DNA of 64,000 nt, taken from Xestospongia muta. Its lineage: Eukaryota; Porifera; Demospongiae; Haplosclerida; Petrosiidae. The position numbers and the translations under genes are program-made. The notes below the pieces were generated by a model. The model was not told the origin of the DNA and ran no database searches. It saw only the letters and a program-made list of their open reading frames with translations. Shown here one piece after another: positions 6,991-61,135 of this stretch. The stretch is from assembly GCA_963693285.1 (NCBI GenBank), contig OY848917.1, forward strand, positions 8,866,192 to 8,930,191. The letters run 5' to 3'. The stretch's first letter is position 1; the number at the start of each line of letters is the position of its first letter.

Positions 6991-6996
6991 CTTTAG

Positions 6997-7039
6997 AAAA
7001 ATGGCTACAGGAATGACTAAGAAGGACAAAAAGTGGACT
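6997..7039 (+). CDS. first coding exon of the GTPase gene
   Basis: Follows acceptor TTTCTTTAG (ending 6996) and is cut by donor GTAAGT at 7040. ATG at 7001 has A at -3 and G at +4. It encodes MATGMTKKDKKWT, basic and hydrophilic, and ends exactly after a codon. That phase is what single-codon exons require. The acceptor in front implies an upstream non-coding exon or trans-spliced leader that was not located. Confidence 0.6.
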
Positions 7040-10000
7040 GTAAGTTTACTAATTAAAAATTTAATTTTCCATAAAATCTGTAAAGTATACATGTAGGCTA
7101 TGTGTATCTTTTTTGAAACTTTGTATAAATTACATTGAACTACATTACTATACTTGATCCTCTACATCAAATGTGTAAATGTATTACTATTTTACTCACA
7201 ACAAACTTGCATAAGTATCTTAATAGGGAATTCATATCACATAGTAGGAATGAGCATTTAGGCTTCACCCTTTCTTCCTTTAAATGAACTAACTGTTTAG
7301 ATATCATGGTGTATGACAAGGTCATCCAGAGTACTGTCCCATTTCAACAAATGTTCAAGGTTTCATGTGTTGATAGAAGTAGGTATAGGTTTGTGGGTAT
7401 GGACATTAGTGTTCTCTGTAGGTATAATCAATAATACCATATCCAAGATACATTCCACACCATTATTTCCATTGAATTCTATAGAAATATGCCATAAATT
7501 TAGTTCTTTTAGAAAGTATACTCTATTGTCTATTGAGTTCAAAACAGATATGCCTATAGAATTTACCCTAGTTACCTCAATAATAAACAACACTAAATAA
7601 TGTTTTTCAAGATTTATGTTCTGTTATGACAATCAACCTTAATGACTAGTTCCATAATATGAACTACAATATAATGTATACATTGCTAAAGTAAGATTTG
7701 TTTAGGAAAAAGGATTGTTGTGACTAGGGTACATTCCATAGTTTATATATTTTACTTTGAAATTGACAAGAATACTAGACAACTTACAAGAGCCATCATA
7801 TATAATAATTCAGTATTTTTGTAAATACCATTAAAGTAGAGAATACTGTATACTTTTTAACACTTGAGGACAAAACATACAGTAATTTCTATATAGTTAC
7901 AGTGGACTGGAATGTACTCCAGATATGATACTATATAGTTATTACTGTGTCATTTACGACACCCACATTCCTGTCTCTTAAATAAAATGTTAACTACGAG
8001 CACTAAGGAAACATCTTTGCAGGATAATTGAACTTACTGTCAGCCCAAATCTCTTTCTTAGGTTTTGAACCTTGTCCATTGTCTCTATGAAGTGCTTTAA
8101 GTATATAAAGGACAACAATAAATTAATGTTAGCAGTAATAATTAATTAGCCACATTCTAAAATTTACTTGTAGGTTAAACTTTTTTGGAGCATAGTTCAA
8201 ACTTACATTTTTGAGAGGTTCCTTTTAACTGTTACTCTATTACTGATATATTATTGTAATATAATAAGTAACTATTAACTAATGAAATATGATTATTTTG
8301 AAAGTTTGTTTAATCCTTTTGTTTCCTTCTCTTCCCTTATATTTCATGTTAGTACCTGGCCTATTGATGTATTATTATATAATAGCCAATAAGTCTGGTC
8401 TATGCTAGTATAATAAGTAAACTCTTAAGTAATGAAATATGGTTTTTATCATATATTTTAACCCTTTTGTTTCCTTCTTTACCTTTATATTTAATGATAC
8501 TACTGGATCTTTTGATATATTATAATAGTGGGTAAGTGTGATCTATCTTAGTATAATAGGTAACTATTATTAACTAATGAATATGTCTATTGTCATAGTT
8601 TGTTTATCCTTTTGTTTCCTTTTCTATTTTTGATATTACTACCTGACTTATGGATGTATTATTATATAATAGCGGGTAAGTATGATCTATTGTAGTATAA
8701 TAAGTAAACATTAATTATTGAAATGTGGTTATTGTCATAGTTTTTATCCATTTTGTTTCCTTCTCTACCTTTATATTTGATGTTACTACCTGACATATGG
8801 ATGTATTATATAATAGGATGTAAGTATGATTTATTGTAGTATAATAAGTAACTATTAATTAATGAAATATAGTTATTGTCATAGTTTGTTCATCCCTTTT
8901 GTTTCCTTCTCTACCTTTATATTTGATGTTACTACCGGACATATGGATGTATTATATAATAGGAGGTAAGTCTGATTTATTGTAATATAATAAATAACTA
9001 TTAATTAATGAAATATAGTTATTGTAATAGTTTGTTTATCCTTATTGTTTTCTTCTCTATCGTTATATTTGATGTTACTACGTGACATATTGATGTATTA
9101 TATAATAGGTGGTAAGTCTGATTTATTATAGTATAATAAGTAACTATTAATTAATGAAATATAGTTATTGTCATAGTTTGTTTATGCCTTTCGTTTCCTT
9201 CTCTACCTTTATATTTGATGTTACTACCTGACATATGGATGTATTATACAATAGGAGGTAAGTCTTATCTATTGTAGTATAATAAGTAACTATTAGTTAA
9301 TGAATATGGTTATTGTCATAGTTTGTTTATCCCTTTTGTTTTCTTCTCTACCTTTATATTTAATGTTACTACCTGACATATGGATGTATTATATAATAGA
9401 GTGTAAGTCTGATCTATTGTAATATAATGAGTAACTATTATTATTGAATTATGGTTATTGTCATAGTTTGTTTATCCCTTTTGTTTCCTTCTCTACCTTT
9501 ATATTTGATGTTCCTACCTGACACATGGATGTATTATATAATAGGATGTTAGTATGATTTATTGTAGTATAATAAGTAACTATTAATTAATGAAATATAG
9601 TTATTGTCATAGTTTGTTTATCCCTTTTGTTTTCTTCTCTACCTTTATATTTGATGTTACTACCTGACATATGGATGTATTATATAATAGAATGTAAGTA
9701 TGATTTTTTGTAGTATAATAAGTAACTATTAATTAATGAAATATAGTTATTGTCATAGTTTGTTTATCCCTTTTGTTTCCTTCTCTACCGTTATATTTGA
9801 TGTTACTACCTGACATATGGATGTATTATATAATAGGAGGTAAGTATGATTTATTGTAATATAATAAGTAACTATTAATTAATGAAATATAGTTATTGTA
9901 ATAGTTTGTTTATCCTTATTGTTTTCTTCTCTACCTTTATATTTGATGTTACTACCTGACATATGGATGTATTATATAATAGATTGTAAGTCTGATCTAT

Positions 10001-13000
10001 TGAAGTATAATAAGTAATTATTAATTAGTGAAATATAGTTATTGTCATAGTTTGTTTATCCTTTTTGTTTCCTTCTCTACCTTTATATTTAATGTTACTA
10101 CCTGACATATGGATGTATTATATAATAGCTGGTAAGTCTGATCTATTGTAGTATAATAAGTAACTATTAATTAATTAAATATGGTTATTGTCATAGTTTG
10201 TTTATCCTTTTTGTTTCCTTCTCTACCTTTATATTTAATGTTACTACCTGACATATGGATGTATTATATAATAGAATGTAAGTATGATTTATTGTAGTAT
10301 AATAAGTAACTATTAATTAATGAAATATAGTTATTGTCATAGTTTGTTTATCCCTTTTGTTTCCTTCTCTACCTTTGTATTTGATGTTACTACCTGACAT
10401 ATGGATATATTATATAATAGGAGGTAAGTCTTATCTATTGTAGTATAATAAGTAACTATTAATTAATGAAATATAGTTATTGTCATAGTTTGTTTATCCC
10501 TTTTGTTTCTTTCTCTACCTTTATATTTGATGTTACTACCTGACATATGGATGTATTATATAAAAGGAGGTAAGTCTGATTTATTGTAATATAATAAGTA
10601 ACTATTAATTAATGAAATATAGTTATTGTAATAGTTTGTTTATCCTTATTGTTTTCTTCTTTACTGTTATATTTGATGTTACTACCTGACATATTGATGT
10701 ATTATATAATAGATTGTAAGTCTGATCTATTGTAGTATAATAAGTAACTATTAATTAATGAAAAATAGTTATTGTCAGAGTTTGTTTATTCCTTTTGTTT
10801 CCTTCTCTACCTTTATATTTGATGTTACTACCTGACATATGGATGTATTATATAATAGGTGGTAAGTTTGATCTATTGTTGTATAATAAGTAACTATTAA
10901 TTAATGAAATATGGTTATTGTCATAGATTGTTTATTCCTTTTGTTTCCTTCTCTACCTTTATATTTAATGTTACTACCTGACATATGGATGTATTATATA
11001 ATAGAAAGTAAGTATGATTTATTGTAGTATAATAAGTAACTATTAATTAATGAAATATAGTTATTGTCATAGTTTGTTTATTCCTTTTGTTTCCTTCTCT
11101 ACCTTTATATTTGATGTTACTACCTGACATATGGATGTATTATATAATAGGAGGTAAGTCTGATTTATTGTAATATAATAAGTAACTATTAATTAATGAA
11201 ATATAGTTATTGTAATAGTTTGTTTATCCTTATTGTTTTCTTCTTTACCGTTATATTTGATGTTACTACCTGACATATGGATGTATTATATAATAGATTG
11301 TAAGTCTGATCTATTGTAGTATAATAAGTAACTATTGATTAATGAAATATAGTTATTGTCAGAGTTTGTTTATTCCTTTTTTGTTTCCTTCTCTACCTTT
11401 ATATTTGATGTTACTACCTGACATATGAATGTATTATATAATAGATTGTAAGTCTTATCTATTGTAGTGAGAATAAGTAACTATTAATTAATGAAATATG
11501 GTTATTGTCATAGTTTGTTTATTCCTTTTGTTTCTTTCTCTACCTTTATATTTGATGTTACTACCTGACATATGGATGCATTATATAATAGCGGGTAAGT
11601 CTGATCTATTGTAGTATAATAAGTAATTATTAATTAGTGAAATATAATTATTGTCATAGTTTGTTTATCCCTTTTGTTTCCTTCTCTACCTTTATATTTG
11701 ATGTTACTACCTGACATATTGATGTATTATATAATAGGTGGTAAGTCTGATCTATTGTGGTATAATAAGTAACTATTAATAAATGAAATATGGTTATTGT
11801 CATAGTTTGTTTATCCCTTTTGTTTCCTTCTCTACCTTTATATTTGATGTTACTACCTGACGTAATGATGTATTATATATTAGGTGGTAAGTATGATTTA
11901 TTGTATATAATAAGTAACTATTAATTAATGAAATATAGTTATTGTCATAGTTTGTTTATCATTTTTGTTTCCTTCTCTACTATTATATTTGATGTTACTA
12001 CCTGACATATCGATGTATTATATAATAGGAGGTAAGTATGATTTATTATAGTATAATACGTAACTATTAATTAATGAAATATGATTATTGTCATAGTTTG
12101 TTTATCCCTTTTGTTTCCTTCTCTACCTTTATATTTAATGTTACTACCTGACATATGGATGTATTATATAATAGCTGGTAAGTCTGATCTATTGTAGTAT
12201 AATAAGTAACTATTAATTAATGAAATATGGTTATAGTCATAGTTTGTTTATTATTTTTGTTTCCTTCTCTACCTTTATATTTAATGTTACTACCTGACAT
12301 ATGGATGTATTATATAATAGCCAGTAAGTCTGATCTATTGTAGTATAATAAGTAACTATTAATTAATGAAATATAGTTATTGTCATAGTTTGTTTATCCC
12401 TTTTGTTTCCTTCTCTACCTTTATATTTGATGTTACTACCTGACATATGGATATATTATATAATAGGCGGTAAGTATAATTTATTGTAGTATAATAAGTA
12501 ACTATTAATTAATGAAATATAGTTATTGTCATAGTTTGTTTAACCCTTTTGTTTCCTTCTCTACCTTTATATTTGATGTTACTACCTGACATATGGATAT
12601 AATATATAATAGGAGGTGAGTATGATTTATTATAATATAATAAGTAACTATTAATTAATGAAATATAGTTATTGTCATAGTTTGTTTATCCTTTTTGTTT
12701 CCTTCTCTACCTTTATATTTGATGCTACTACCTGACATATTGATGTATTATATAATAGGCGGTAAGTATAATTTATTGTAGTATAATAAGTAACTATTAA
12801 TTAATGAAATATAGTTATTGTCATAGTTTGTTTAACCCTTTTGTTTCCTTCTCTACCTTTATATTTAATGTTACTACCTGACATATGGATATAATATATA
12901 ATAGGAGGTAAGTATGATTTATTGTAATATAATAAGTAACTATTAATTAATGAAATATAGTTATTGTCATAGTTTGTTTATCCTTGTTGTTTACTTCTCT

Positions 13001-16000
13001 ACCTTTATATTTGATGTTACTACCTGACATATGGATGTATTATATAATAGATTGTAAGTCTGATCTATTGTAGTATAATAAGTAACTATTAATTATTGAA
13101 ATATATTTTTTGTCATAGTTTGTTTATCCTTTTTGTTTCCTTCTCTACCTTTATATTTGATGTTACTACCTGACATATCGATATATTATATAATAGACTG
13201 TAAGTCTGATCTATTTTAGTATAATAAGTAATTATTAATTATTAAAATATAGTTATTGTCATAGTTTGTTTATCCCTTTTGTTTCTTTCTCTACCTTTAT
13301 ATTTGATGTTACTACCTGACATATCGATATATTATATAATAGACTGTAAGTCTGATCTATTGTAGTATAATAAGTAACTATTAATTAATGAAATATAGTT
13401 ATTGTCATAGTTTGTTTATCCCTTTTGTTTCCTTCTCTACCTTTATATTTGATGTTACTACCTGACATATGGATGTATTATACAATAGCCAGTAAGTCTG
13501 ATGTATTGTAGTATAATAAGTAACTATAAATTAATGAAATATAGTTATTGTTATAGTTTGTTTATTCCTTTTGTTTACTTCTCTACCTTTATATTTAATG
13601 TTACTACCTGACATATGGATATATTATATAATAGATTGTAAGCCTGATCTATTGTAGTATAATAAGTAACTATTAATTAATGAAATATAGTTATTGTCAT
13701 AGTTTGTTTATCCTTTTTGTTTCCTTCTCTACCTTCATATTTGATGTTACTACCTAACATGTGGATATATTATATAATAGATTGTAAGTCTGATCTATTG
13801 TAGTATAATAAGTAACTATTAATTAATGAAATATAGTTATTGTAATAGTTTGTTTATCCCTTTTGTTTTCTTCTCTACCTTTATATTTGATGTTACTACC
13901 TGACATATGGATGTATTATATAATAGATTGTAAGTCTTATCTATTGTAATATAATAAGTAACTATTTATATTAAAATGTGGTTATTGTCATGGTTTGTTT
14001 ATCCCTTTTGTTTCCTTCTCTACCTTTGTATTTGATCTTACTACCTGACATATGGATGTATTATATAATAGGAGGTAAGTCTTATCTATTGTAGTATAAT
14101 AAGTAACTATTAATTAATGAAATATAGTTATTGTCATAGTTTGTTTATCCCTTTTGTTTCCTTCTCTACCTTTATATTTGATGTTACTACCTGACATATC
14201 AATGTATTATATAATAGGATGTAAGTATGATCTATTGTAGTATAATAAGTAATTATATATTAATGAAATATATTTATTGTCATAGTTTGTTTATCCCTTT
14301 TGTTGCCTTCTCTACCTTTATATTTGATGTTACTACCTGACGTATGGATGTATTATATAATAGATTGTAAGTCTGATCTATTGTAATATAATAAGTAACT
14401 ATTATTATTGAAATATGGTTATTGTCATGGTGTGTTTATCCCTTTTGTTTCCTTCTATACCTTTATATTTGATGTTACTACCTGACATATGGATGTATTA
14501 TATAATAGGAGGTAAGTCTGATCTATTGTAGTATAATAAGTAACTATTAATTAATGAAATATGGTTATTGTCATAGTTTGTTTATTTCTTTTGTTTCTCT
14601 CTCTACCTTTATATTTGATGTTACTACCTGACATATCAATGTATTATATAATAGGATGTAAGTATGATCTATTGTAGTATAATAAGTAATTATTAATTAA
14701 TGAAATATAATTATTGTCATAGTTTGTTTATCCCTTTTGTTTCCTTCTCTACCTTTATATTTGATGTTACTACCTGACATATGGATGTATTATATAATAG
14801 TCAGTAAGTCTGATGTATTGTAGTATAATAAGTAACTATTAATTAATGAAATATGGTTATTGTCATAGTTTGTTTATTTCTTTTGTTTCCTTCTCTACCT
14901 TTATATTTGATGTTACTACCTGACATATCAATGTTTTATATAATAGGATGTAAGTATGATCTATTGTAGTATAATAAGTAATTATTAATTATTGAAATAT
15001 AGTTATTGTCATAGTTTGTTTATCCCTTTTGTTTTCTTCTCTACCTTTATATTTAATGTTACTACCTGACATATTGATTTATTATATAATAGACTGTAAG
15101 TCTGATCTATTATAGTATAATAAGTAACTATTAATCAATAAAATATGGTTATTGTCAGAGTTTATTAATTTTAGACCTTCTTACTTTTAATTGAAAACTT
15201 AGTTTTTTATTTGTACTATTAACGTTTCCATGACAATAATAATTCTAAAATTTTAATATTTGTGATCTATAATTATATGTATTATTTATCATGTAATTGT
15301 AATAATGCTTACTTTAATGTTTTTTTTTATATTCTCTCTTGTCTAGAGAATGGAATTAAGAGGTCAGTTCTAATTGTCTCAGATAATTTGCATGTGACAT
15401 TTAACTATATTCGTAATCAGAAATTTAATTTTAAGATTGTGCTGCACTTCTATTTCTTACTGTGAATAGTTTTTATCTTGCCATTACTGCCTACTACAAA
15501 GAGCATGCTACTTTTGGTTTTAAGCCATGTGTGAATATACGAATATGTCCATTGTTGTCATTTTATTCTATAGCTGTTAAAGTTTGCTTTCTACATTTAT
15601 TTTTTCCCCATAGACATAGTTCCCAACTCTCCTATTTTGACAACTATAATATTTTCCTATATAAAATGATTATATTCCAAAATTTAGATATTTTATATGA
15701 TTCTAATATGTTTAAAAATACAGAGTCTTATAAAAGAGCTCTAGCTGATGGAGAGAGGAATGTACCTTATGCTCGAGTCATGCTTCTCGGCACAGCAGGT
15801 GTAGGAAAGACTACCTTTAAGCGATCGCTGATGAAGCTACCATTTGAGCGTGACACTATTAGCACTGGTCTTTCAGATATATATCGTATTCGCCCGTTTG
15901 GCCATGAGTGGAAAACTTTGAAAGATGATCAATGGAAAGTAGCCACATATGAAGATGAGTTGGAGGAGATGGCACACCTCCTGTCATCTATTTACAAAGA

Positions 16001-19000
16001 TAATTTAGGTGTACAAAATCCAAGTGATGCAATTAAAGCATCATTGCTTTATGATGCTACTAGTGCACAGTTGTCACTTGATGTTGCTGAGGATCAAATT
16101 AAAAAAGTGGAAGAAAGGAAAGTAAACAAGATTCTTAGTGAAGCTATTGACATAATTGATTCTCTAACAGCCACCAATACCGATGCTCAACCATTTTTAC
16201 ATATTTGGGATTGTGGTGGTCAACCTGCATTCCTTGAACTTCTACCAGCATTTCTCACTCCTCGTACCTTGTTTGTTCTAATGTTTGATGCATCAAAAGG
16301 GCTGAATGAAAGATGGAGATCTGTGCTGAACAAAGATGGTCATGAAAACGTACTTGAAGAAGTTAACATGACCACTCTACAGCTTATGCTTAGTTGGATG
16401 GCAAATATTCATGGTCATCTTGCTAAAGGTGGTCTAAGTAAAAGCTTTCCTGGCTATCCTCAATTGCTTTGCATTGGTACTCATGGAGACTGCCTGCAAT
16501 CTCTAGAGCAATGCATTGCAGTTAAGCTTGAATTGGAGTCTCATATTAAAGGAAAAGCATTCAGAGAGCTTATTGAAGATGTCATAATAGTTGATAATAC
16601 AACATCTGGCTTTTTGAAGGATGAAGATCCTAATCTAGAACGCATTCGAAAAATAATTAGTACATTTACTTATGAAAAGCTCATTGTCAAGACACCTGTA
16701 AGCTGGGTACTCTTTCGGAAGGTAATCCAAGCCTTGGAAGAAAATGTAGTGAGTCTTAAAGAAGCTCATATCATTGCACGTGCTTGCAAAATTTCACCTG
16801 ATGATGTTCCTAAAGTCCTTCTCTTTTATCACGATTTAGGGGCTTTACTATTCTATCCTCACATTGAAGGTCTTAAAAACAAAGTTGTTGTTAGCCCCAA
16901 ATATTTTGTTGATATGATTGGTAAATTGTTTACCATAGATGATTGCAGTCATAACTTCCGTTTACTTGACATTTGGGAAAAGTTTCAAAAGAAAGGAATT
17001 TTAATTGAGTCTTTGTATAAATTTGTTTGGGAAGAAAGTAAAGATTTCCATCCTGATGCTCTGATAGATCTCTTAGTAGATTTTCGTATAGCTGCTGAAG
17101 TTCATACCAATATACATCATGATCCTAGTATCAAGCAGTACTTCGTACCTGCAATCCTGAAATCATTTCCTGGAGATCCTTACAAGGTTTTAACTGGTAG
17201 TTGTATGCATGCGTCACCTTTACACATCTCATTTTCAACTGGTTTCGTACCACCAGGTTTTTTTACACGTTTTGTCACTACTATCGCCAGTAATCCTACT
17301 TATAAACTTTGTTTTGATCATGGTGTTTATAGAAACCATGTGACTTTTCGCTGTGATGATTCATTTGTTGCTTTCACAGACCTTCAAAATGCAATACTTG
17401 TTGATGTAGCGAGCTATGATCGAACTAATTTCATTATGCCATTTGTTGAATTCTGTCAAGACCTCAAAGTGCTTATTGAGAAAAGTGCAAAAGCAGTTGA
17501 AATAACACTTAATAAGTCACAGACAACATTTACTGAAGAAACGTCTTATCATGTCACTTTTGAAATTAAATATGTTTGTCAATCAGATGAGTGTACTCAT
17601 CAACTAGATCATCGACATTATATTGAGACTTCTACAAGGCAAACTAATAGTAACTTTGTCTATTGTGAGAAAAGTGAAAAGAAATTTCCATACCGTCCAT
17701 TATCTTCAATGGAAGTATACTGGTTCAAGGATGACATGACAAATCAGAAGGTATACTGTAGATTTCACTATTGTTTCATTTGTATGACCATTTTGTACTT
17801 AGAAAATACAGCATATCCCTCATGACAACACAAGTCAGAAGTGCTCTCAGTGAGTATTTCAAATAGTTTTAGCTGATGCTATTGTCATTTCAGAGTAATT
17901 GACAGTGAAGATCACATTGCTAGTAATGAAGATACACATGCAAACATAGTTAGTTAAAAATTAATTATTATATAACTTTATAGGCTGTGTTTACAATCCT
18001 GACAGTAAATACAATAATTCAATGATCAATTAATACTGTACCCTATACCATAAATCTTGGAACCTAACTATATTAGTTTCACATTAAAGTATATGGCTTT
18101 TTATTTAGATTTGTAGGTTTTGATAGGAATTGTATGCATAGTGACTGAAAAAAGAAATGATTTGCTACAGATATTTTAGCATCATTAATTATAATAATTT
18201 TTTTTTCAATAGGTTAGACAAAAGAAGCCCAATAAAGGTAAAATATTCTAACAAATAAATCTGATGTGACATATCAGAATCATATATATTTCACATAGCC
18301 ATAGTTATTGTTATTATGTCTTTTCAATTCTATTCTACATTTTTGTATTACATCTAGGTTAACATTATGAACTTTCTAGGCCATGTGATTTGTAAATCAA
18401 CAGGCTCACATCTTTAATTTTAATGTTAACATAGTGTTTTCGTCTTGTATTCATTCCATAACTCTTTTAATGACAATTATCATGTCATGCACCACACATG
18501 CTATATTTCGTTAAAAAAATGCCTCCCATGCCTTCTTATGTTTATTAAAATTAAAGAAGCCATGAAAGTAACTGCAAAGAATTTTCTCCATTTAAAGTTT
18601 TCATTGTTTACTGATAAATAGAATCTTGTCTTACAAAATGTCATGATGTCTTACATCAAAATAAACACTGGTCTTGAATAATAGCCTCCCTCAGGTGGAT
18701 CATAAAAACATAGTATTCACAGCTGCTATTTAAGGAAGTATAGTACTATGAAGGTGTTACCATGATATAGTTTTAGATATTGTACATACCTTTGATGTCT
18801 CATAATGAGGTGACATGATCGTGCCTATTATTTGAAAGTGTCTATAATTGTATATAATAATTATTTTTGCATTTACCTTAATTTTCCATCTTATAACCTT
18901 GTTACATAATAACTATTAATAAAATAGTTCAAATTACTATATACTATTCATGTATACCTTTAATACCATATCTATAATTATGTTACTAGAGCTTTCTATC

Positions 19001-19414
19001 AGTGGATCCAGATAGTAGGGACATTTTGTAAGGACTTTATAGAAGTGGTTAATTTTTGAAAATAATATATAAGACTCAGTTTAATCAGTCATTAGTAATG
19101 GACTATTGTTTTTTCTAGATATTTTAAAGGAAAGTCCCAATCACAAGGAAGCTGTTACACTTTTGACAAATGTTAGTGCTGATTGGGAAGTGATTGGTAT
19201 AGCCCTCAGTGTTTCACAAAATGATTTGAAAGGCTTACAACCAGAAAGCATCAATATAACAGTAAAGCTTTCCCGAGTAATAGCTAAATGGATGGAAACT
19301 GAGTCATCATCACCTGTTTCCTGGGAGACGTTGATTTCTGCCATTGAGGGGCCTATTGTTAATAACAAACAGAAGGCTAAGGAGATACGTGATTACCTCT
19401 ATAGTCAATATTAA
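7001..19414 (+). CDS. Roc-COR-type GTPase with C-terminal Death domain, N-terminus encoded by about 46 single-codon exons
   Basis: Inferred multi-exon gene. Coding pieces: 7001-7039 (phase 0 end); 47 units with 3-nt exon candidates between 8386 and 15095; 15347-15362 (16 nt, ends phase 1); 15724-17750 (ends phase 0); 18214-18238 (25 nt, ends phase 1); 19119-19414 with stop TAA. All junctions use GT-AG and phases agree throughout. The protein would be about 850 residues: a short basic start, an acidic/aliphatic segment, a Ras-of-complex GTPase, a COR-like region, a Cys/His-rich stretch and a Death domain. Roco and Death-domain proteins act in cytoplasmic signalling, often stress, death or innate immunity; the partner here is unknown. 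Intron 1 (7040-8385) is 1.35 kb and shows nothing else. ATG at 7001 is chosen for its AAAAATGG context and because the frame joins the array; a further upstream exon is not excluded. Confidence 0.75.
8386..11740 (+). CDS. single-codon exon candidates, units 1-24
   Basis: Start of each 3-nt exon and its codon, by unit: u1 8386 CCA (donor lost), u2 8529 TGG, u3 8673 CGG, u4 8817 GAT, u5 8963 GAG, u6 9109 GTG, u7 9255 GAG, u8 9400 AGT, u9 9545 GAT, u10 9691 AAT, u11 9837 GAG, u12 9983 ATT, u13 10129 CTG, u14 10275 AAT, u15 10421 GAG, u16 10567 GAG, u17 10713 ATT, u18 10859 GTG, u19 11005 AAA, u20 11151 GAG, u21 11297 ATT, u22 11445 ATT, u23 11592 CGG, u24 11738 GTG. None is a stop codon. Each lies between a preserved AG and, except in unit 1, a preserved GT. 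In phase 0 they continue directly from the exon ending at 7039. The evidence is sequence pattern and phase only; splicing is inferred. Confidence 0.7.
11884..15095 (+). CDS. single-codon exon candidates, units 25-47
   Basis: Start and codon by unit: u25 11884 GTG, u26 12029 GAG, u27 12175 CTG, u28 12321 CCA, u29 12467 GCG, u30 12613 GAG, u31 12759 GCG, u32 12905 GAG, u33 13051 ATT, u34 13197 ACT, u35 13343 ACT, u36 13489 CCA, u37 13635 ATT, u38 13781 ATT, u39 13927 ATT, u40 14072 GAG, u41 14218 GAT, u42 14364 ATT, u43 14509 GAG, u44 14655 GAT, u45 14801 TCA, u46 14947 GAT, u47 15093 ACT. No stop codon occurs. The branch-like CTGAC becomes CTAAC in unit 38, which still fits CTRAY. After unit 47 a normal donor (15096) opens a 251-nt intron to the acceptor GTCTAG at 15346. 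Confidence 0.7.
15347..15362 (+). CDS. 16-nt exon joining the array to the GTPase domain
   Basis: Preceded by a strong acceptor (pyrimidine-rich TTCTCTCTTGTCTAG) and followed by donor GTCAGT at 15363. Read in phase 0 after unit 47 it gives R-M-E-L-R plus one base, G. That G combines with AG at 15724-15725 to make a Glu codon and restores the frame of the GTPase exon. This 0-to-1 phase bridge is the strongest single argument that the array is in the transcript, because a phase-0 array could not join the GTPase exon at acceptor 15723 directly. Confidence 0.6.
15724..17750 (+). CDS. main exon: Roc-type GTPase plus COR-like region
   Basis: The exon starts after AAATACAG (15716-15723) and ends at donor GTATAC (17751), phase 0. 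The open frame reads back upstream of 15724 to 15462, but that part looks like intron. Near the start is the P-loop GTAGVGKT (15789-15812); switch II is DCGGQP from 16209; the G4-like motif is GTHGD with its Asp at 16488, as in Roco proteins where THxD replaces NKxD. A winged-helix/COR-like segment follows (VVVSPKYFVDMIGKLF, then a region around FVPPGFFTRFV), and then a Cys/His-rich segment (CQSDECTHQLDH) before the splice site. About 675 residues. The reading is intact, with no stop or frameshift, which supports a functional gene. The exact Roco subfamily could not be settled by eye. Confidence 0.85.
18214..18238 (+). CDS. 25-nt exon between the COR and Death regions
   Basis: Follows a T-rich acceptor ending CAATAG (18213) and stops at donor GTAAAA (18239). 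It encodes VRQKKPNK plus one base. Phase 0 in and phase 1 out match the exons on both sides (the leftover G plus AT at 19119 gives Asp). It is a basic linker. The donor is weaker than the consensus. Confidence 0.55.
19119..19414 (+). CDS. last exon: Death domain
   Basis: The acceptor TTTTTTCTAG ends at 19118. The exon encodes about 98 residues and ends with TAA. Death-fold signatures are visible: DWEVIGIALSVSQNDLKGL (helices 1-2 with the conserved Trp), KLSRVIAKWME (helix 4) and SWETLISAIEG followed by a final helix KAKEIRDYL. Death domains form homotypic signalling assemblies. Downstream (19.4-19.9 kb) is AT-rich 3' sequence containing the short repeat motif CCTCGAATAGAGGCA. Confidence 0.8.
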
Positions 19415-19914: not shown

Positions 19915-21445
19915 TCTGCAATGCTGCAATAAAACTGGTAAAATTGCTGAAGATAATCAAGAAATCCAAATGTTAGCTTGTTGTTGCAATGTATGGACAA
20001 ATGGCATTTATTGGGAGAGGGAGAAAGACAAAGTTATTATTGAGGTAACAGAAAACTATCATTGTGTTACAATAGTTACATCAATAGATAATGTCATGAA
20101 AAGCTGCATATTTTTCAATATTGCTATTAAGAGCATATTAAAGTTGGGTCAGATGCACTCATTTAAATGTCAGAAATACCTCATTGCTCCTAGCAATGTA
20201 GCAAAAGCTCGTAGTCTTCCTGTTAGTGAAGGCATGCTTTATAGTATAAAAGATAATACTCAATCAGTGAGTTCAAAATGTGATATTAGTGATAACAATG
20301 ACACCAATAATGAGGATATTGAACAAATTGTGGGAGGTAATTATCCCATTCTTTGCATTATTCCTTCAGTGACAAAAGCACTTTTCAATGCTGAAATGCC
20401 ACTTCAAGAGGACCATTTTTAATTTAAAATAGATGTTCTTATGAATAGACGTTCTTATTTCACATCCTCACTTTTATCATCAAGTCACTTGTCAATCAAG
20501 GATCATTGCAGTCAACTCAATGTGTTTGCTGGACATAATCCTTTGGTAAGTATAAATTAGTTTGAATATGTAAATCTTATGGCAATCATCATACTTGTAC
20601 CACATTAATTTTATACTATATCACACTTACACCACACTGTACTGTATCATAATTCATTCAGTTATAGAGTCTTTGTTATTCTCCATTAAATGAATATGAG
20701 ATAGAAACTATATCTGATCGACTCATCTTAACAGGTCAGTGTATAGTGTTAGTGATTCATTATTGGTCATAGCCATCTTTTTGGGATGTATTGTAAATAC
20801 AGTGTGCTATGTAGTAATACAAACCTGAGGATTGTTATGTCACAGCATATGCTATATGTGTAATACAGTATGATGCAGGTTGGGCTATAACATGCTTATG
20901 GCTTGATACCGTGGACGTTAAAAATGATGTCTCAGTCCAGTATTAACTAATGTTAGTGCTTTATCTGGATATGAATGACACTTTATCAAGCCTGAGCACA
21001 TGTAATCAACACTTTGAACTTCAATGTTATTACATCACCACTTCTTTATTTAATATTGACCATAACATAATTATAATTATCTTATTTTTAACAACAAAGT
21101 TTATTTTGGTATCTCAATACAAACATGTTTTTTTATTTTCGTAAAATAGGTAATTTGGCTAAAGAAGTATCTACTATACCAGATAGTGTATTGGATTAAC
21201 AACCTCCCATTCTAGAAATAACTACACAAGCTAAAACTGCAGAGTGGAATCAATTAGGTGTGCAACTAGAACTGAACGATGTGACCTTAGCTGGATCTCA
21301 TGACTATACCAAGATGTATCAGTTATGGATTATGGAGAAAGCTGAAAATGCAACTCAAAGGAAATTAATATCTGCTTTAAGAGCAATTCAACAAAATAAT
21401 TTAGCATATAAGTATGAACAACGTCTGAAAACAGTTTCCATATGA
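19915..21445 (+). pseudogene. broken paralogue of a GTPase C-terminal half with Death domain
   Basis: From about 19915 an open frame runs to TAA at 20420-20422 (WTNGIYWEREKDKVIIEVTE near its start); it resembles the region after COR in sponge Roco-type proteins. A second coding block at about 21148-21445 ends in a Death-domain-like sequence (AEWNQLGVQLELNDVTLAG, later LWIMEKAENATQRKLISAL) and a stop TGA. In that block an in-frame TAA (21197-21199) interrupts the linker before the Death domain. No P-loop part was found upstream. I read it as a truncated, inactivated tandem relative of the gene ending at 19414, although an unusual exon structure could rescue part of it. Confidence 0.5.
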
Positions 21446-31915: not shown

Positions 31916-32055
31916 GACATTCCATAGTAATTATCTTCAATTTCTTTGTTTATTTAACAAATGTAACCCATAGCTTCCCTGCATATGCATCCATGACACT
32001 ATGTTAGCTGTCTGTATATGATAATACTGACATAACAGGATCCAGACCAACAATC

Positions 32056-33102
32056 ATGTCTTGTAAGCTGTCATTTGTCTTTCTTGTCATGATTTTTATT
32101 ACCTGCTCTGCTGTGGAAGGTTCCTCTCATTGTATGACTGATTGCAACAGTTTTGGCCAAAGATCATTCACTGCTTATGAAGGGTTGTGCTGTTCACCAT
32201 CAAACAAAGGAGATATTATTTGTGTCACTAAAGATAATGGTCGCACTGGTTATGTAGTATGTCCAGATACTATACCAAAATGGTGTTTTGAATTCAAAAT
32301 TTGTTATGACATTCTACAATCAGATCAAGGTGCTCCCTCTGGCTATTACAACATAACAGTCAATGGTAGCTTAGTTGAAGTGTATTGTGACATGATGGGT
32401 AGTAACTGTGTTGGAGAGGGTGGCTGGACTAGAGTAGCATTTGTTAACATGAGTGAGCCTGGGGCATCTTGTCCTCCTGGACTAGAAGAATATGACATCA
32501 CTAATGGCAGCTTACTTTGTTGGATAAATAATGAACACTACTATTATGGTTGTAACTCTGCCTTCTTTCCTACTTATGATGTCAACTATACAAAGGTGTG
32601 TGGTCGTGTTAGAGGATACCAGTATTGATATCCTTATGCTTTTAATTGGAACTTAAACAACTATAACTGCTTTGATCCTCAAATAAAAACATATGGAGTG
32701 ACTCTTACCTACAGTAATAATCCTTGTAAACATATTTGGACTTATGCTGGTGGCCACTATGAACAAAGAACACAATCATATGATTGTCCTTGTAACAATG
32801 GCAGTCAATACCAGAACCATTATATACCATTTGTTGGTAATGATTATTACTGTGAATCAGGACGTAGTGTTGGTAAAGGTGGTTACATCTTATATGCCAA
32901 TGATCCCCTCTGGGATGGTCAGGATTGTCCTGGACTTGAGGCTACTTGTTGTACATCTTCTAAGATGCCATGGTTTGTGAAGACATGAAATGAAACAGTT
33001 AATGAAGACATTGAATTGACTACATGTGGTCATAAGTACTATTATTATCTGACATATGTTTATGGTACTCCTCTTGACCTTATAGAACTTTATATCAAAT
33101 AA
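32056..33102 (+). pseudogene. secreted fibrinogen-like protein gene with two in-frame TGA codons
   Basis: One frame runs 349 codons from ATG 32056 to TAA 33100-33102, interrupted only by TGA at 32626-32628 and 32986-32988. A signal peptide is obvious (MSCKLSFVFLVMIFITCSA). Further on are a fibrinogen-like start (SGYYNITVNGSLVEVYCDM), the GGWTRVAFVNM signature, many cysteines and N-glycosylation sites. The product would be extracellular; relatives act as lectins or adhesion proteins. The first TGA follows GYQY, where relatives usually have Gly, so a GGA-to-TGA change is likely. The second follows FVKT. No indel occurs, so the damage is recent. Stop readthrough cannot be excluded without RNA or protein data. 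Confidence 0.65.
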
Positions 33103-35322: not shown

Positions 35323-38300
35323 TTACAAAAATGACATATATAATTCGCTGGTATAGTAGTTAGTTGTGGTTGTGTGCAATAGAGATGTAACCATACTGTC
35401 CCATCTGTCACATTGTATCCATTCAATAGCATCAACTGTAGTTGTGTCATCTTTCAAACAGCCACTGCAGAATTTTACGTCAGCACCCTCAAAGTCTTTT
35501 TCAATTTTATTTATTTCTTTAACAGTGGGTTTTGACAGAGTTGGAGTAGAACTGTACCTTTTCTTTTTTGTAGGAAAAAAATTTTGATGTTCACAGTTTT
35601 GATTTGGTGACACCTTTTGCTTGACAGGTAGCTTTTTTAGTGCTTTGTTTGTTTATAGCAGTTATTACAGAGATAACAGACTGAACATGTCTGTTAGCAG
35701 TCTGAATAGCATCGGTATTTTGACAGTAACTATTGCTTCAAGTTTTAGAACTTTCTTTAATAAGGTTGTTTTAGTTTGTCTCAAAGATGTGTCAAGTTTC
35801 TTGTCAGATAACAGGCTGGTAAAGTAAGAGTAAGTATCAGCTAACAGAGTAGGATCTTCTGAAATACTGTCTGTGTCCTTTTGCATATAATTCATATGTA
35901 CAAAGTGAACATGTTTACATACTGTTGCGTGTAAGATAGAATCTAAGCAAGTACAAGTGTAGTTATGGGCACAAATTTGACAGTCTGTACATCGAAGCCT
36001 ACATCCACAGTTTTCTTGAGCTTTCTCGACCACATAATTTGTATCAGGAGATGATTGTGATTGTACTTTCCACTTTGTATTTTCAATTTGTGTAGCAGAA
36101 GACAATTTTAACAATAGAGCTTTCTTGTAGCATTTGTTTACCTCACATATTCTATGTGAATTTTTTCCCATTTCTAACTTACGAAAACATTCAAATACTT
36201 TATCTCTAGCTACTCTCATTAATGTAATAAGTAAACTGTCAATTCTTCTATTTTGTTTGTGGTTTAAGTACAATATTTTTAGGACTCTATGAAGTGATTC
36301 AAGGTACATGTTAGTGTTGATTGTTGTTTGAGTACGGTAACACGCTGCCCATTGTGGTAACTGTGAGCAATAATTTGTAGTAAAGTAGGCAAAAAAACAA
36401 GCATGTTCTTTTTGTAGGTGTGTGAGAAAAGCTTGCAATGTAACTCTAAATTTAGCTTCATCTCTTTCATTAAGTAAAATGCTTAGTTGATGGTATATTT
36501 TATATGATCTTTGTCTCTCACAGTTTCTACTAATGCTTTTCTCCATGTTCTGTCTATGAGCCAAGCACAAAGGATTTTCTTAGTATCTCCTTCACCAAAT
36601 ACTGCTTTCCATGCATTGAAGTAATTGTCAGCATCATCTGACATGAACCATGATTGGAGTAATAACACCACTACTACATTTAATGGCTTCAAAGAAAGGT
36701 ATCAATGATATTGTGTCTTCTCGGTTAGAAAGCATCCAAGCTACTGGTATACCTTCCCTGTATTCATCAATCACAACTAGAGTTATTAGATTAAAATGAT
36801 ATATGTTGGTGCCATGTGTGGTATCTATGCATACTGTGTCATACCCAAAAGCCTTTAGCATATCCCTCTGAAATTCTGTTTGAATGCATAACAGAAAATC
36901 ACCATCTGCCAAATTGTCTAAATTATCTGGTTGTGGTCTCCCTTGCTCTTTATAAATTAAAATGGGGTTATAAGGAAGTGCTTGCATATCTAATATCCAG
37001 GCGTTGACACTAATTAAGTTGTTGGCATGACGATTAATACATTGTTATATTAAGTTTTTATGTTGTGGATGTCTTGTCTGTTAATTAAGTGTTCTCGATT
37101 GATGTTGTTATAAACTGACTTGCGGATGCTATCTAAAATATGCTCTATACTCACTCCCTCTTTAAGCTTCTTAGCAATATCCTGTCAAATTATCAAAGGT
37201 ATTCGTAGATAAGCTAACTGTGTTGTGTGATTATAGTGTGTAGGGCAATAGGGAGTTAGGGACAATGAATTTTTAGTGTTTTGATGTCCTGCACTGCTTT
37301 GATATAAGCAGAGTACTGTGATCCTATATTTGCTGTTCCTTGTGTTTTTAATTGACGTTTTCCAGCTCCCTTAGATTTGTATGTGCCTGCCCTGTTACAG
37401 TAATAGTAAAACACCTTCATTCCATTGGAGGAGACCTGTGGTACACACTTAAGAACAAATAAGGAACGTGTAGTTATTTCAAACTCTTCCTTCCATTCAT
37501 AAAATTCTTCTAATGTATTGAAACTTATTTCCTTTTTTTCTATAGACAGTTGATGTAGTAGTTTTTGAAGACTTGCCACTCTTTGGTAAAAGACATGAAT
37601 TAAAAGGTAATAAACACATGTACACAAACCTGCTATTACATATAGTACATGTAACCAGACCACTTTCAACATCATTATGTGCACTCCTCATGTGTTTTGA
37701 GAGACCACTTCGAAATGAATAACCCCGTCCACAAATTGAACATGTATGTTTTTCACCAGTTGACTTAGATAGATTTGATGGAAGTTTTGTAACTGTTACC
37801 AAATCAGTGAACAACAATATGTGTACTTTACATTCAGTATTACCTGCACACTTTGTGTAAAGTTGTGTATCACTTTTTGTCTTAATAGAGGTAGCATGAA
37901 ATAATACTGACTTCTTCAGAAATTCATTGTTGAAGCTATCAGATTTAATTGTTTTATTCTTCTTTTTCAAAGAAAGAGAGGTTTTAGATGTTAATGCTGG
38001 CTTAACAACCCCAGGTTTACTAATTAGTGGATTGTGTAGGCATTTAGCTTCTTCAGGTTCTAGAAAGACAGGTTGATAGTTGAATCCACTCAAAGGAATT
38101 GGTGACTGTAGTAGTGATGCTCTGATATTATATTTTCTGCAATTTACAGTTGAAAATGGATCAAAGTATGCATCACGAAGACTCACAACAATTGTCCACA
38201 TAAAATTTCTTCTACTAATATTTTTCTTAGCAGTCCCATGTGTTCCTATAGTTAAAGAAAGTTTAAGTATGATCACTGTGTAATTGTAAAACCTGATCAA
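35323..38300 (-). pseudogene. MULE transposase (C2H2 finger, FLYWCH/FAR1-like, DDE, SWIM, PHD-like), frameshifted
   Basis: Minus-strand pieces in order. 38300-37620: basic N-terminal part with a C2H2 finger (CSICGRGYSFRSGLSKHMRSAH). 37560-37260: a segment of the FLYWCH/WRKY-GCM1 kind (EFYEWKEEFE, then YYYCNRAGTYKSKGAGKRQ). 36987-36600: the MULE catalytic region, with the first Asp in VCIDTTHGTN and a later MSDDADNYFNAWK. 36500-35900: a helical region, then a SWIM-like zinc site (CTCLDSILHATVCKHVHFVH). 35613-35400: a PHD-like Cys cluster (FCSGCLKDD). The catalytic region is split by at least two frame changes (near 36670 and 36510), so this copy should not make an active enzyme unless short introns repair it. 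Enzymes of this family excise and reinsert the element by its inverted repeats. Confidence 0.7.
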
Positions 38301-38500
38301 AATCCCAAGTCATATCAAAGACACAGCAATAAGCAAATTGTGTGACAAACACACCACAGTCTACACCATTAGTTTGGAGAGGTTGATCCTATGATTAAAC
38401 TGTCATAATACATACCTCACTTCTGTTACATACTGTTCTGTGAATATACTTCCATTGACCCAGTTAGGTACTGGTATGTTTCTTCCAATGCATCTGTGTT

Positions 38501-55636: not shown

Positions 55637-56009
55637 CAAACTAATTGGTTACTAAGCACATTAGCAGTTACAGTATATTGTTCAATTTTCTTCCTTGTTC
55701 CATACAACAATAGAATAGAAAGATGAGAAAAGGATATAACTAAGTTATACAGCTCATAAGAAGAATTAAACCTAGTTCAAGTGTTTATAATAGTTTTAAT
55801 TCTGACAAAGGTATGTAATCTATTAAAATCATACTCATAGTTTGGCTTTGGCTGAGTCATCAATCTTATCTTATAATCTGTTCAGTTTGAATTTGATGAT
55901 GTGCACAACAGATATGGAGCTTTTCACATGTCTCTGACTTCTTAAAAGAAGAAGCATGGTGCTAAAGATATAATACTGAAAAGTCAAAAGGCATACGATA
56001 AGTATTAGC

Positions 56010-56206
56010 CATAGTGGGAGGTACTAGTTATAGTGGGAGGTACTAGTTATAGTGGGAGGTACTAGTCATAGTGGGAGGTGCTGGTCATAGTGGGCAGTAC
56101 TGGTCATAGTAGGAGTTACTAGTCATAGTGGGAGGTACTGGTCATAGTGGGAGGTGCTGGTCATAGTGGGAGGTACTGGTCATAGTGGGAGGTACTAGTT
56201 ATAGTG
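56010..56206. repeat. 19-bp minisatellite, about 10 copies
   Basis: Unit TATAGTGGGAGGTACTAGT with small variants (CATAGTGGGAGGTGCTGGT, CATAGTAGGAGTTACTAGT). Confidence 0.9.
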
Positions 56207-59578: not shown

Positions 59579-61135
59579 CCTGGGTCACCAGCCAACTACT
59601 GGAAAAACTCCAATATTGTACCTATTCCCAAATCGAAAACCTCTTCTTCATTCCCTTCAGACTATCGTCCAATCTCTCTACTTTCCCTCCCAAGTAAGAT
59701 CATCGAATGTCACATATTTAACTATCTGTACGAATTTTGTTCTGCTCACAATATCCTCTCTAATTGTCAGTTTGGTTTCTGACCAGGATTCTCAACTAAA
59801 ACAGGTATATTATCTACTATTAATTATTGGTTTTCTTCACTGGATCACAAAAATTCCGTCTGTGCAGTTTTCTTTGATCTCGCAAAAGCATTGGACTCTG
59901 TCCCTCACTTGACTCCTTATCTTCGCTCAACCTTTTTTCCTCTTCTTTTGTCTTGGCTCCATAGCTACCTGCAAGGCCATACTTAACAAGTAATCATAAA
60001 TGCTTCTCTATCTTCTAAATCTGAAGTAACCTCTGGTGTGCCTCAAGGTTCCATTCTTGGGCCTCTCTTATTCATCATCTATAGAAATGACATTGCTAAA
60101 TTGTCCCTCTTCTCTTCAGCCACCCTCACTCTTTATGCTGATGACATTATTCTCTCGCAAGAATTTCTTCTACAACCTCAATGTCCACTGTTCAGTCCAA
60201 CATCAACCTTATTTCATTGTGGATTACCTCTCATCATCTTATCATCAACTCCAAAAAAAACAAATAAATGATTGTCTCTCGTAAGTCTCTCTCTTTTCTA
60301 ACCTCCCTCCCTCCTCTTTTCTTAGATGGCTCTCAATTTGAACAAGTCAAATCCTTCAAATATCTTGGTATTATTATCACCACTAATTTATCATGGTCTC
60401 CTCACATCCAATCAGTCCACTCTAAAACTCGTCAAACTATTGAAATCATCTACTGTAATTTCTATAAGATGCTTCTCCTTATACTCTTCTCACTTTATAT
60501 CGCTCTCTTGTTATGCTCCTCTGTTTGGGATCCACCCGTATCTTCCACTAATGCTGAAATTCTCGAGAAAACCCAACACTTTGCTTTAAAAATGTGCTCT
60601 CATAAATGGGACAATGATTACTCATCTCTCCTCTCAACGTTTAACCTTCTGACCCTCTCAACTTGTCGCTCTATTTCGAAATTATGTCTTCTTTATAAAA
60701 TCACTAACAACCTCCTCTACTTTCCTTCCGATATTTTCATTCGCAAGCCTCTACCAAGTTATGCTTCTCATCACTTTGATCCTCTCACCTTTACCATCCC
60801 TTTTTTCTCACTCATCTGCTTCACAAAACTATTTGTCCCTTCTGTTTTCTCTCTTTGGAAGTCACTTCCTCATCATGTAAAATCTAGCTCATCTCTAAAC
60901 ACTTTTAAATCTAAAGTAAATATGCTTTTTTACTAACCATCAACACACCATCACTTATCACACTAAAACCTATCATATACAATCAGTCACTTATTCTATC
61001 ACTGTACTATATATGATACTATATCCTGTACTTTAATACCTTAATCCTGTATTATTAATTGTTGTTCTATTCAGTTTGTGCCCTTTAAACTAGCAGTTGC
61101 TATTGGGCATTCATTTTGTCAATAAAAAAACTACA
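59579..61135 (+). mobile_element. non-LTR retrotransposon reverse transcriptase, 5'-truncated and broken
   Basis: Recognisable reverse transcriptase blocks run across several frames: IVPIPKSKTSSSFPSDYRPI (start, about 59615), QFGF then TGA, VFFDLAKALDSVPH, GVPQGSILGPLLFI (about 60038) and YADDIILS (catalytic, from 60134). The thumb part SFKYLGIIITTNLSW follows, and then a long frame to TAA at 60934-60936 with a typical C-terminal region (SVWDPP, SLWKSLPHHVKSS). An A-rich end AATAAAAAAACTAC lies near 61122. The order and motifs fit Jockey/L2/CR1-like elements. Stops and frameshifts make it inactive. Codon use is more CT-rich than in neighbouring sequence. Confidence 0.85.

Follow-up and report, generated by a model that had tools for sequence, protein, structure and literature searches.

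The 64-kb window (the whole stretch of sponge DNA analysed) carries a Roc-COR gene that belongs to a tandem cluster, and between phase-0 exon ends of this gene, with a Death domain close by, lies an array of 47 short repeated units. The features, from 5' to 3', are the following.

7001..7039, + strand: predicted first coding exon, MATGMTKKDKKWT, with acceptor TTTAG at 6992-6996 and a phase-0 end before GTAAGT
8240..15163, + strand: tandem array, 47 units each about 146 bp long (tandem-repeat finding and unit scan)
Exon starts, units 1-12, + strand: 8386 (no GT), 8529, 8673, 8817, 8963, 9109, 9255, 9400, 9545, 9691, 9837, 9983
Exon starts, units 13-24, + strand: 10129, 10275, 10421, 10567, 10713, 10859, 11005, 11151, 11297, 11445, 11592, 11738
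Exon starts, units 25-36, + strand: 11884, 12029, 12175, 12321, 12467, 12613, 12759, 12905, 13051, 13197, 13343, 13489
Exon starts, units 37-47, + strand: 13635, 13781, 13927, 14072, 14218, 14364, 14509, 14655, 14801, 14947, 15093
8529..15095, + strand: 46 triplets with AG and GT; their ordered conceptual joining (not from RNA) is WRDEVESDNEILNEEIVKEIIRVVELPAEAEITTPIIIEDIEDSDT
15347..15362, + strand: 16-nt exon AGA ATG GAA TTA AGA G, phase 0 to phase 1, acceptor TCTAG, donor GTCAGT
15724..17750, + strand: large Roc GTPase and COR-A exon of 2,027 nt, predicted 3' end CAGAAG before GTATAC
19085..19414, + strand: open frame, Death-fold-like by eye
21200..21442, + strand: open frame with a Death domain (Pfam)

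The reading frame of the large exon runs on from the 16-nt exon, and its product displays a Roc domain (PF08477, 1.4e-9) followed by COR-A (PF16095, 2e-11), both above the Pfam cut-off; a Roc GTPase domain and then COR is the arrangement of ROCO (Roc-COR) proteins. A search of solved structures with this exon returned only short matches to the LRRK2 Roc domain (E about 2e-4). The open frame at 19085..19414 presumably resembles a Death-fold domain, for which Pfam gave no support, while the frame at 21200..21442 has a Pfam Death domain above cut-off (PF00531, 5.7e-5) and is likely a C-terminal exon of the gene, the product of which would probably be a sponge Death-domain protein. By eye, exon 1 encodes no signal peptide. 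Among database proteins the nearest ones (P0001-P0007, from ENA) are without the leader, and since P0001-P0004 begin in intron-derived residues they were called from DNA. The COR-A family is expanded in this genome, with at least 148 members above cut-off (150 of the 261 candidates scored), and an Rfam search of the window gave no match.

Array units and exon length

The first-pass annotation had read this apparent satellite as about 46 tandem single-codon exons, and the count bears this out: 47 units are present, with AG in 47/47 and GT in 46/47, the sole GT-less unit being the first one (CCA followed by ATAAGT at 8386). Four further hits (9137, 12057, 12641 and 15121), each with 4 mismatches and 28 bp past a real unit, were dropped as spurious. 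The acceptor and donor motifs claimed for every unit occur in most of them, ATAATAG in 43/47 and GTAAGT likewise in 43/47, the remaining units deviating. A branch-like CTGAC, placed by the annotation about 24 nt upstream, was found 15-35 nt before the acceptor in 42/47, with its A at -24 in 41, and the proposed frame neutrality fits the exact 3-nt length together with phase-0 neighbouring exons on both sides. The triplets span 8386-15095, with 36 of the 46 spacings at 146 bp, none of the 47 is a stop codon, and the conceptual peptide WRDEVESDNEILNEEIVKEIIRVVELPAEAEITTPIIIEDIEDSDT holds 16 D/E and 3 K/R.

We scanned for [CT]AG-N(k)-GT[AG]AG[TA] with k from 0 to 15 on both strands. On the + strand the window array has 43 sites at k=3 and 0 at all other k, and on the - strand a single site, also at k=3; the remaining 47 kb of the window has 0-4 sites per k and strand. 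In the 15 paralog regions there are 561 sites at k=3 versus 5 at k=0, and across the rows no length but k=3 is strongly enriched. These regions also show 12 sites at k=7 on the + strand (0-1 per region), and 22 three-nt sites on the - strand (0-3 per region, few distinct sequences).

These lengths bear on recursive splicing. At a ratchet site the acceptor is directly followed by the donor, so that a zero-nt exon is formed and nothing is left in the mRNA; the array could accordingly be a set of ratchet points removing one 8-kb intron stepwise, with the triplets as a by-product in the mRNA. An acceptor that nearly abuts the donor recalls such sites, but the units hold three bases where a ratchet site holds none, k=0 is absent from the window array and found 5 times in the paralog regions against 43 and 561 sites at k=3, and diversity sits in the triplets and not in the flanks, so that we regard this explanation as highly improbable.

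The same spacing prevails genome-wide, where TAG-N3-GTAAGT occurs 12,865 times versus 2,296 for N4 and 2,574 for N6. The excess of 3-nt sites is about 10,000, and the window array is part of this genome-wide class. Reversed-pattern controls gave 960 + 1,046 (N3), 928 + 1,025 (N6), 4,686 + 4,939 (N4) and, for the two-site N4 pattern, 456 + 543 versus 6 + 8 for the pattern itself; because the reversed N4 counts are inflated by some other sequence, the forward N4 and N6 counts were used as length controls. With up to 2 mismatches, TATTATATAATAGNNNGTAAGT has 5,745 matches in its own genome versus 37 for the reversed pattern.

Stop avoidance and conservation of the plan

Stop codons are avoided, with 1 in 771 units versus 25.6 expected (range 14-41 in 2,000 column shuffles), and with 1 in 446 versus 14.1 expected (range 5-27) in a reduced set that leaves out the first four units per array, the C1_30775k array and duplicates. 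A strict census of loci chosen independently of stops gave 2 in 789 units, and ATATAATAG-TAA/TGA-GTAAGT has 0 occurrences genome-wide. All 12,865 three-nt sites together hold 147 stop triplets, which is below the yield of 2,300-2,600 background sites at a stop rate of 9.4% (29/307 AG-NNN-GT sites in the window from 17 to 64 kb; 4/29 for TAG-NNN-GTA). Counting against the one-codon-exon reading are 1 TAG in the C12 array, 2/16 stops in L040 and 1/13 in L044, the latter two loci having been fetched since a stop search led there.

In the window gene and 15 close paralogs the arrays range from 27 to 104 units and add up to 700, of which 663 have an intact GT donor and 697 an intact AG acceptor; the 37 units without GT and the 3 without AG likewise count against the one-codon-exon reading, and 25 of the 37 sit in the first three positions of their arrays. 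Exon 1 was found in 15/16 of these genes, window gene included, with 5 or fewer mismatches over 54 nt and a phase-0 end in 15/16, and the 16-nt exon in 16/16, with 0-3 mismatches of 31 and a phase-0 start in all. One may ask whether the rows are decaying remnants of a once-translated segment that is now bypassed. Stops or lost donors in some rows would fit such decay, as would the close family member C1_8648k, in which exon 1 could not be recognised within the stretch examined; the 663/700 donors, 697/700 acceptors and 1/771 stops make it very unlikely.

Distant paralogs keep the acceptor-NNN-donor plan, with introns that have no detectable similarity to those of the window. Of 10 further rows compared with the window array by blastn (E 1e-3), seven (L029, L030, L031, L035, L036, L037 and L038) gave no match; L033 matched over a piece of 25 nt, whereas C1_30775k (82%) and L041 (69%) were genuinely similar. 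The rows are partly non-independent: L030 resembles L035 at 87%, L029 and L038 have stretches in common with these two, and C1_30775k and L041 resemble the window array. In L037 there are 19 sites of exactly 3 nt and none at any other length between 0 and 10, and tandem repeats with units above 36 bp are lacking; L033 has 8 three-nt sites. A small phase 0-to-1 exon was detected by script in 3/8 distant loci (L029, L035, L038) and in none of L030, L031, L033, L036 and L037. The 4 kb upstream in 3/8 further paralogs (L032, L034, L039) held 0, 3 and 1 sites and no row.

A non-exonic intronic satellite, with splice-like motifs in its unit by chance, would account for the tandem repeat that TRF reports (47.4 copies of a 146-bp unit with 90% matches), but we consider it extremely improbable, given that the 3-nt plan recurs in rows without detectable unit similarity and at loci that lack any matching tandem repeat, at a constant location between phase-0 exons family-wide, with stops avoided and hypervariability limited to three bases. 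Related candidates were rejected: chance or a satellite origin, by the length spectrum, the dissimilar rows and the rows without a matching tandem repeat, and a satellite of nucleosome length (146 bp), by the units at other loci, which measure about 137-207 bp or vary irregularly. Introners (transposon-derived introns) are marked by a target-site duplication at both ends of the inserted intron; in a check for this, positions -3 to -1 (TAG) and +1 to +3 (GTA) were nearly constant while the triplet varied, so that no copy of the triplet is present at the opposite end of the intron.

Triplet variability and unit turnover

In the pooled arrays (554 units, 13 arrays) variability peaks at the three exon bases, with diversities of.72,.74 and.56 versus a mean of.127 and a maximum of.485 in the 90 flanking columns. 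The exception is C1_8936k, in which the third exon column (.14) ranks 31/93; in the other arrays the lowest exon column ranks 3-8. The leader intron differs by 6.6% on average in 11 of these genes. Selection would account for the pattern, though homogenised introns could instead explain part of the triplet diversity. Among 700 units, C occupies the first position 264 times, the second 166 times and the third 17 times, and this avoidance of C at the third base is as a donor would demand, judging from the base counts. The third base showed no link with donor strength, GTAAGT following 360/405 triplets ending in G versus 271/298 others (p = 0.45).

Gene copies with 0/5,405 aligned intron differences are 6 units apart, in one block, and copies with 3/4,261 are 14 units apart, in two blocks; neither pair shows a codon change. 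Targeted hypermutation of the triplets on the shortest times is unsupported, as three near-identical gene pairs, with 102, 78 and 93 aligned triplet sites, show not one codon difference. In two diverged pairs, where unit homology is partly ambiguous, 5/69 triplet versus 48/3,831 intron sites (p = 0.002) and 19/87 versus 84/4,676 differ. Among units that share identical 90-nt flanks the triplet differs in 399/781 pairs, which is not taken as a rate because the flanks are too similar overall for identity to imply close kinship.

Proposed one-codon exons and known systems

The predictions of the one-codon-exon reading that were put to the sequence hold, and we favour it with a probability of roughly 0.8: the 46 complete acceptor-codon-donor units would be spliced in frame as one-codon exons before the Roc-COR GTPase. 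We strongly infer inclusion of the triplets in the mRNA and their translation, and each array would most likely encode a rapidly changing stretch at the N terminus of a Death-domain GTPase, a stretch lengthened or shortened by single residues. Splice sites only 3 nt apart should compete, and the dozens of splicing steps in series constitute a cost argument against this reading. The exons might be real and yet mostly skipped, the mRNA running chiefly from exon 1 to the 16-nt exon with few variable microexon triplets. Competition between the sites, the open frame left by any subset of units and the tolerance of first units without donors in the family all agree with skipping; it is nevertheless rather unlikely, as rarely used exons would hardly stay stop-free with intact splice sites, an upkeep that lasted while the L037 introns lost any matching tandem repeat.

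Serial one-codon splicing would presumably work by intron definition, each intron of about 140 nt being recognised as a unit and excised in turn, given the mutual hindrance expected of splice sites that lie only 3 nt from one another. The mostly perfect GTAAGT donors may free the codon from donor pairing, avoidance of C at the last base excepted. Gain or loss of units by unequal exchange, or skipping, would alter the protein by one residue with the frame kept, and leaders could in this way diversify fast from one gene copy to the next. Speculatively, the leader may serve an immune-type receptor family in recognition or tuning; as a Roc-COR gene in a tandem cluster with a Death domain nearby, the window gene is a concrete candidate for how an early-branching animal might diversify its sensing. 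A tentative and doubtful extension is that the rows form a combinatorial splicing library, in which in-frame residue subsets per transcript would give an enormous somatic repertoire of leaders for receptor-like death-signalling proteins from about ten thousand exons in a limited set of genes, the germline library being renewed as single-codon cassettes are gained and lost.

If translated, the arrays would represent the limit case of split genes, in which an exon is a codon, in long series; they would force a test of how the spliceosome handles dozens of exons below its footprint, offer a new route for residue-wise evolution of a protein segment without frameshift, and constitute a class of coding sequence unseen by ordinary aligners and annotation. 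Among the matches listed for open-licence PMC literature (titles and abstract starts), none describes single-codon, tandem or clustered, or sponge microexon arrays, nor such arrays in Amphimedon Roc-COR/Death proteins; rows of one-codon exons thus appear as an extreme gene layout for which a previous description was not found in that literature. Annotated Roc-COR proteins of Amphimedon queenslandica have leaders of very different lengths, and the N-terminal part of one (P0106) aligned with relatives over just 27-51% of the searched length, differences that are compatible with the one-codon-exon reading and no evidence for it.

Schistosome micro-exon genes (PMC5825161) have symmetric exons of 6-36 bp over about 80% of the coding region, and products nearly always secreted or membrane-anchored. 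The sponge genes share the tiny frame-neutral exons, for which protein variation by alternative splicing was proposed in schistosomes, but differ in that exons are all 3 nt, 27-104 per row in the close family, and that a 2,027-nt exon fills much of the coding region, which places them outside that class. Brown-algal ROCO genes (PMC11378527) are expanded and carry tandem, exchangeable, frame-neutral LRR exons of 72 bp in phase 2, with diversifying selection and alternative splicing reported and a role as immune receptors proposed. The ROC-COR superfamily, the family expansion and a row of frame-neutral units are common to both; however, the algal exon is one LRR (72 bp, phase 2) whereas the sponge unit is one codon in phase 0 and does not belong to that exon type. 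Finally, single 3-bp microexons are reported as spliced in homothorax, troponin T and NCAM (PMC7392893). A full acceptor and donor around three bases is likewise found in 46/47 window units; in those genes, as described there, the one-codon exon stands alone, whereas the sponge arrays present dozens in series.

Array units and the gene around them

The array consists of 47 tandem units, each with an acceptor, three bases and a donor, as the first-pass annotation had read it in proposing about 46 consecutive single-codon exons; AG is found in 47/47 and GT in 46/47, and the branch-like CTGAC, placed by that annotation about 24 nt 5' of the acceptor, lies 15–35 nt before it in 42/47, its A being at −24 in 41. 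The claim that the length is exactly 3 nt also held, with 43 sites of [CT]AG-N(k)-GT[AG]AG[TA] in the array at k=3 and none on the same strand at k=0–2 and k=4–15. Stop codons are absent from the 47 triplets (0/47).

Features of the array and its gene (window coordinates)
7001–7039, +: predicted exon 1, 5' of the array, reading MATGMTKKDKKWT; ATG at 7001, end in phase 0
8386 to 15095, +: triplets of the array, spaced 146 bp apart in 36/46 cases
15347–15362, +: 16-nt exon 3' of the array, starting in phase 0 and ending in phase 1
From 15724, +: big exon continuing the frame of the 16-nt exon; Roc and COR-A above Pfam cut-offs
21200–21442, +: Death domain (Pfam), 3' of the Roc/COR-A exon and probably part of this gene

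Among the best 120 of 488 matches, all named relatives are Amphimedon queenslandica Roc-COR proteins (43–47% identical), which makes a sponge other than Amphimedon the likely source. The annotated Amphimedon proteins P0051, P0106, P0121 and P0122 have N-terminal leaders unlike in length and sequence, and their Roc part aligns to P0106 at 80–90%. Elsewhere in the window, a frame at 32008–32628 resembles a fibrinogen-related domain by eye, with no Pfam match; a C2H2/BED-type zinc-finger frame (37497–38309, −; Pfam below cut-off) and a frame resembling by eye a LINE reverse transcriptase end (60268–60936, +) are likely mobile-element remains. A 19-bp tandem repeat (10.8 copies) occupies 56002–56206.

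Variation among close Roc-COR genes

The Roc-COR exon has at least 68 matches in its own genome (66 of 742 candidates scored), and COR-A was above cut-off at 148/150 scored places (150 of 261 candidates scored). Sixteen matches are 83–100% identical, 15 of them on contig 1 (8.19–9.05 Mb) and one on contig 12, and this close family has an array 5' of the exon in 16/16 genes, with 27 to 104 units each and 700 in total (AG in 697, GT in 663). The 16-nt exon and the Roc exon start are recognisable in 16/16, exon 1 in 15/16, the exception being C1_8648k. Read in order, the triplets spell peptides that differ between most of these genes and are alike in a subgroup of five; block repeats occur in them, ESELLVS and PRVVPSPRV for example. 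GT is missing from 37 units, 25 of which stand at positions one to three of their array. Array-start units CAC and CCA or TCA (for example at window 8386) have ATAATT, ATAAGT or ATAAAT in its stead, at a place conserved across the 16 genes; these may be non-exonic start elements.

Over 554 units from 13 representative arrays, diversity in the three exon columns is.72,.74 and.56, against a mean of.127 and a maximum of.485 in 90 flanking columns. Hardly any variation is seen at AG or at the T of GT. When columns are ranked by diversity within each array, the lowest-placed of the three exon columns comes 3rd to 8th of 93 in 12 arrays; in C1_8936k it comes 31st. The leader intron differs by 6.6% on average among 11 of these genes; the 12.7% of the flanks thus indicates no unusual constraint on them. 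GC content is 58% in triplets versus 26% in flanks. A C before GT weakens the donor, and over the 700 units C occurs 264 times at the first triplet position, 166 at the second and 17 at the third; the triplet therefore bears a coding and a donor signature together. Alanine (3 versus 45.7), glutamine (7 versus 37.2) and glycine (11 versus 32.6) are rarer than column frequencies predict, and serine, aspartate, proline and glutamate are commoner.

The gene copies compared lie on one contig, although an assembly fault may account for differences in unit number: one pair with 0/5,405 intron differences differs by 6 units in one block, another with 3/4,261 by 14 units in two blocks, and a third with 10/4,931 has the same units; none shows a codon difference. 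In two more diverged pairs, whose unit homology is partly ambiguous, 19/87 triplet sites changed versus 84/4,676 intron sites, and 5/69 versus 48/3,831. Since near-identical copies differ by units and not by codons, the fast mode of change is gain and loss of one-codon cassettes.

Stop avoidance and genome-wide counts

Only 1/771 units carries a stop (TAG, unit 20 of the contig 12 array), whereas 2,000 per-column shuffles gave a mean of 25.6 and a minimum of 14. With units 1–4 of every array, the C1_30775k locus and duplicates left out, the count is 1/446 against 14.1 shuffled (minimum 5). A stricter census of loci not chosen by stops gave 2/789; the second stop falls in L034, a stretch 5' of a distant Roc-COR exon, at one of its three sites. 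Rows with stops do exist, as L040 (2/16) and L044 (1/13), both loci fetched because the stop search pointed there, hold them; these rows are possibly decaying.

Across the genome (158 Mb, 28 contigs), TAG-NNN-GTAAGT occurs 6,189 + 6,676 times (12,865), versus 1,086 + 1,210 with four bases and 1,356 + 1,218 with six. The excess at exactly three bases, about 10,300, is an estimate, because some of the sites counted belong to another gene family, where they stand alone at intervals of about 30 kb. Reversed controls gave 960 + 1,046 (three bases), 4,686 + 4,939 (four) and 928 + 1,025 (six); TAGNNNNGTAAGT read backwards is itself abundant in this genome, pointing to another repeated sequence. TAGATGGTAAGT is found in C1:0.72–1.15 Mb as solitary copies roughly 30 kb apart, and the one example examined (L042), which is in no row, may mark where an ordinary exon of a different gene family ends. 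Stop triplets number 106 + 41 among the 12,865 sites; at the background rate of 9.4% (29/307 AG-NNN-GT outside the window array; TAG-NNN-GTA 4/29), 2,300–2,600 background sites alone would yield more stops than that.

Rows at other loci, proposed splicing and known systems

Eleven stretches 5' of more distant Roc-COR exons (L029–L039) were searched, and five contain tandem-repeat rows (L029, L030, L031, L035, L036).

Rows in distant stretches and at C1_30775k
L029: 183-bp unit, 12 sites
L030: 205-bp unit, 20 sites
L031: periods 141–157, 21 sites
L035: 206-bp unit, 18 sites
L036: mixed unit types, including one of 137 bp; 13 sites once 2 overlapping ones are dropped
L038: 6 sites with surroundings alike, no TRF row
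L037: 19 sites 78–534 bp apart, no matching tandem repeat, no repeat unit above 36 bp
L033: 8 sites, no matching tandem repeat
C1_30775k (L027–L028, C1:30775000–30794999): 72 units, then a 16-nt exon of the same type and later a ZU5-domain frame (L028:6795–7388, Pfam 1.6e-5)

L032, L034 and L039 have no row (0, 3 and 1 sites, respectively). In the distant rows k=3 stands out, other k giving 0–3 sites per k and strand, save for 5 overlapping sites at k=7 in L036. By blastn (E 1e-3) the window array matches C1_30775k (82%) and L041 (69%), has no more than a 25-nt match with L033, and has no match with L029, L030, L031, L035, L036, L037 or L038. L030 resembles L035 at 87%, and pieces of both recur in L029 and L038; the introns of L037 and L033 have no more in common than short, weak similarities (best E 2e-5). 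Because of these likenesses and non-matches, the rows are taken to comprise several unrelated-looking intron types rather than eleven independent ones. No Roc exon was found 3' of the C1_30775k row within C1:30775000–30794999, and one-codon rows may be used by more than a single gene family. The acceptor type CAATATAATAG, common to L041 and part of L040, is two mismatches from a longer unit pattern searched genome-wide and may account for many of that pattern's 3,513 reverse-strand matches.

We propose that the units are exons, which would be spliced by intron definition over introns of roughly 140 nt; with just 3 nt between adjacent sites, removal would be serial. Past the fourth unit of an array, the donor is exactly GTAAGT in 631/703 units. 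A leader of some 20–100 residues would be added to the predicted protein between its basic start and the GTPase; a sensing role, hinted at by the Death domain, the clusters and the variability, is speculation.

A literature search of open-licence PMC titles and abstract starts found no description of rows of one-codon exons among the entries listed. Single exons of 3 bp are established for several genes (PMC7392893), and schistosome micro-exon genes have symmetric exons of 6–36 bp (PMC5825161). In brown-algal ROCO genes, LRR exons of 72 bp are shuffled, and both diversifying selection and alternative splicing are reported (PMC11378527), a striking parallel to the sponge rows, with the protein superfamily in common.
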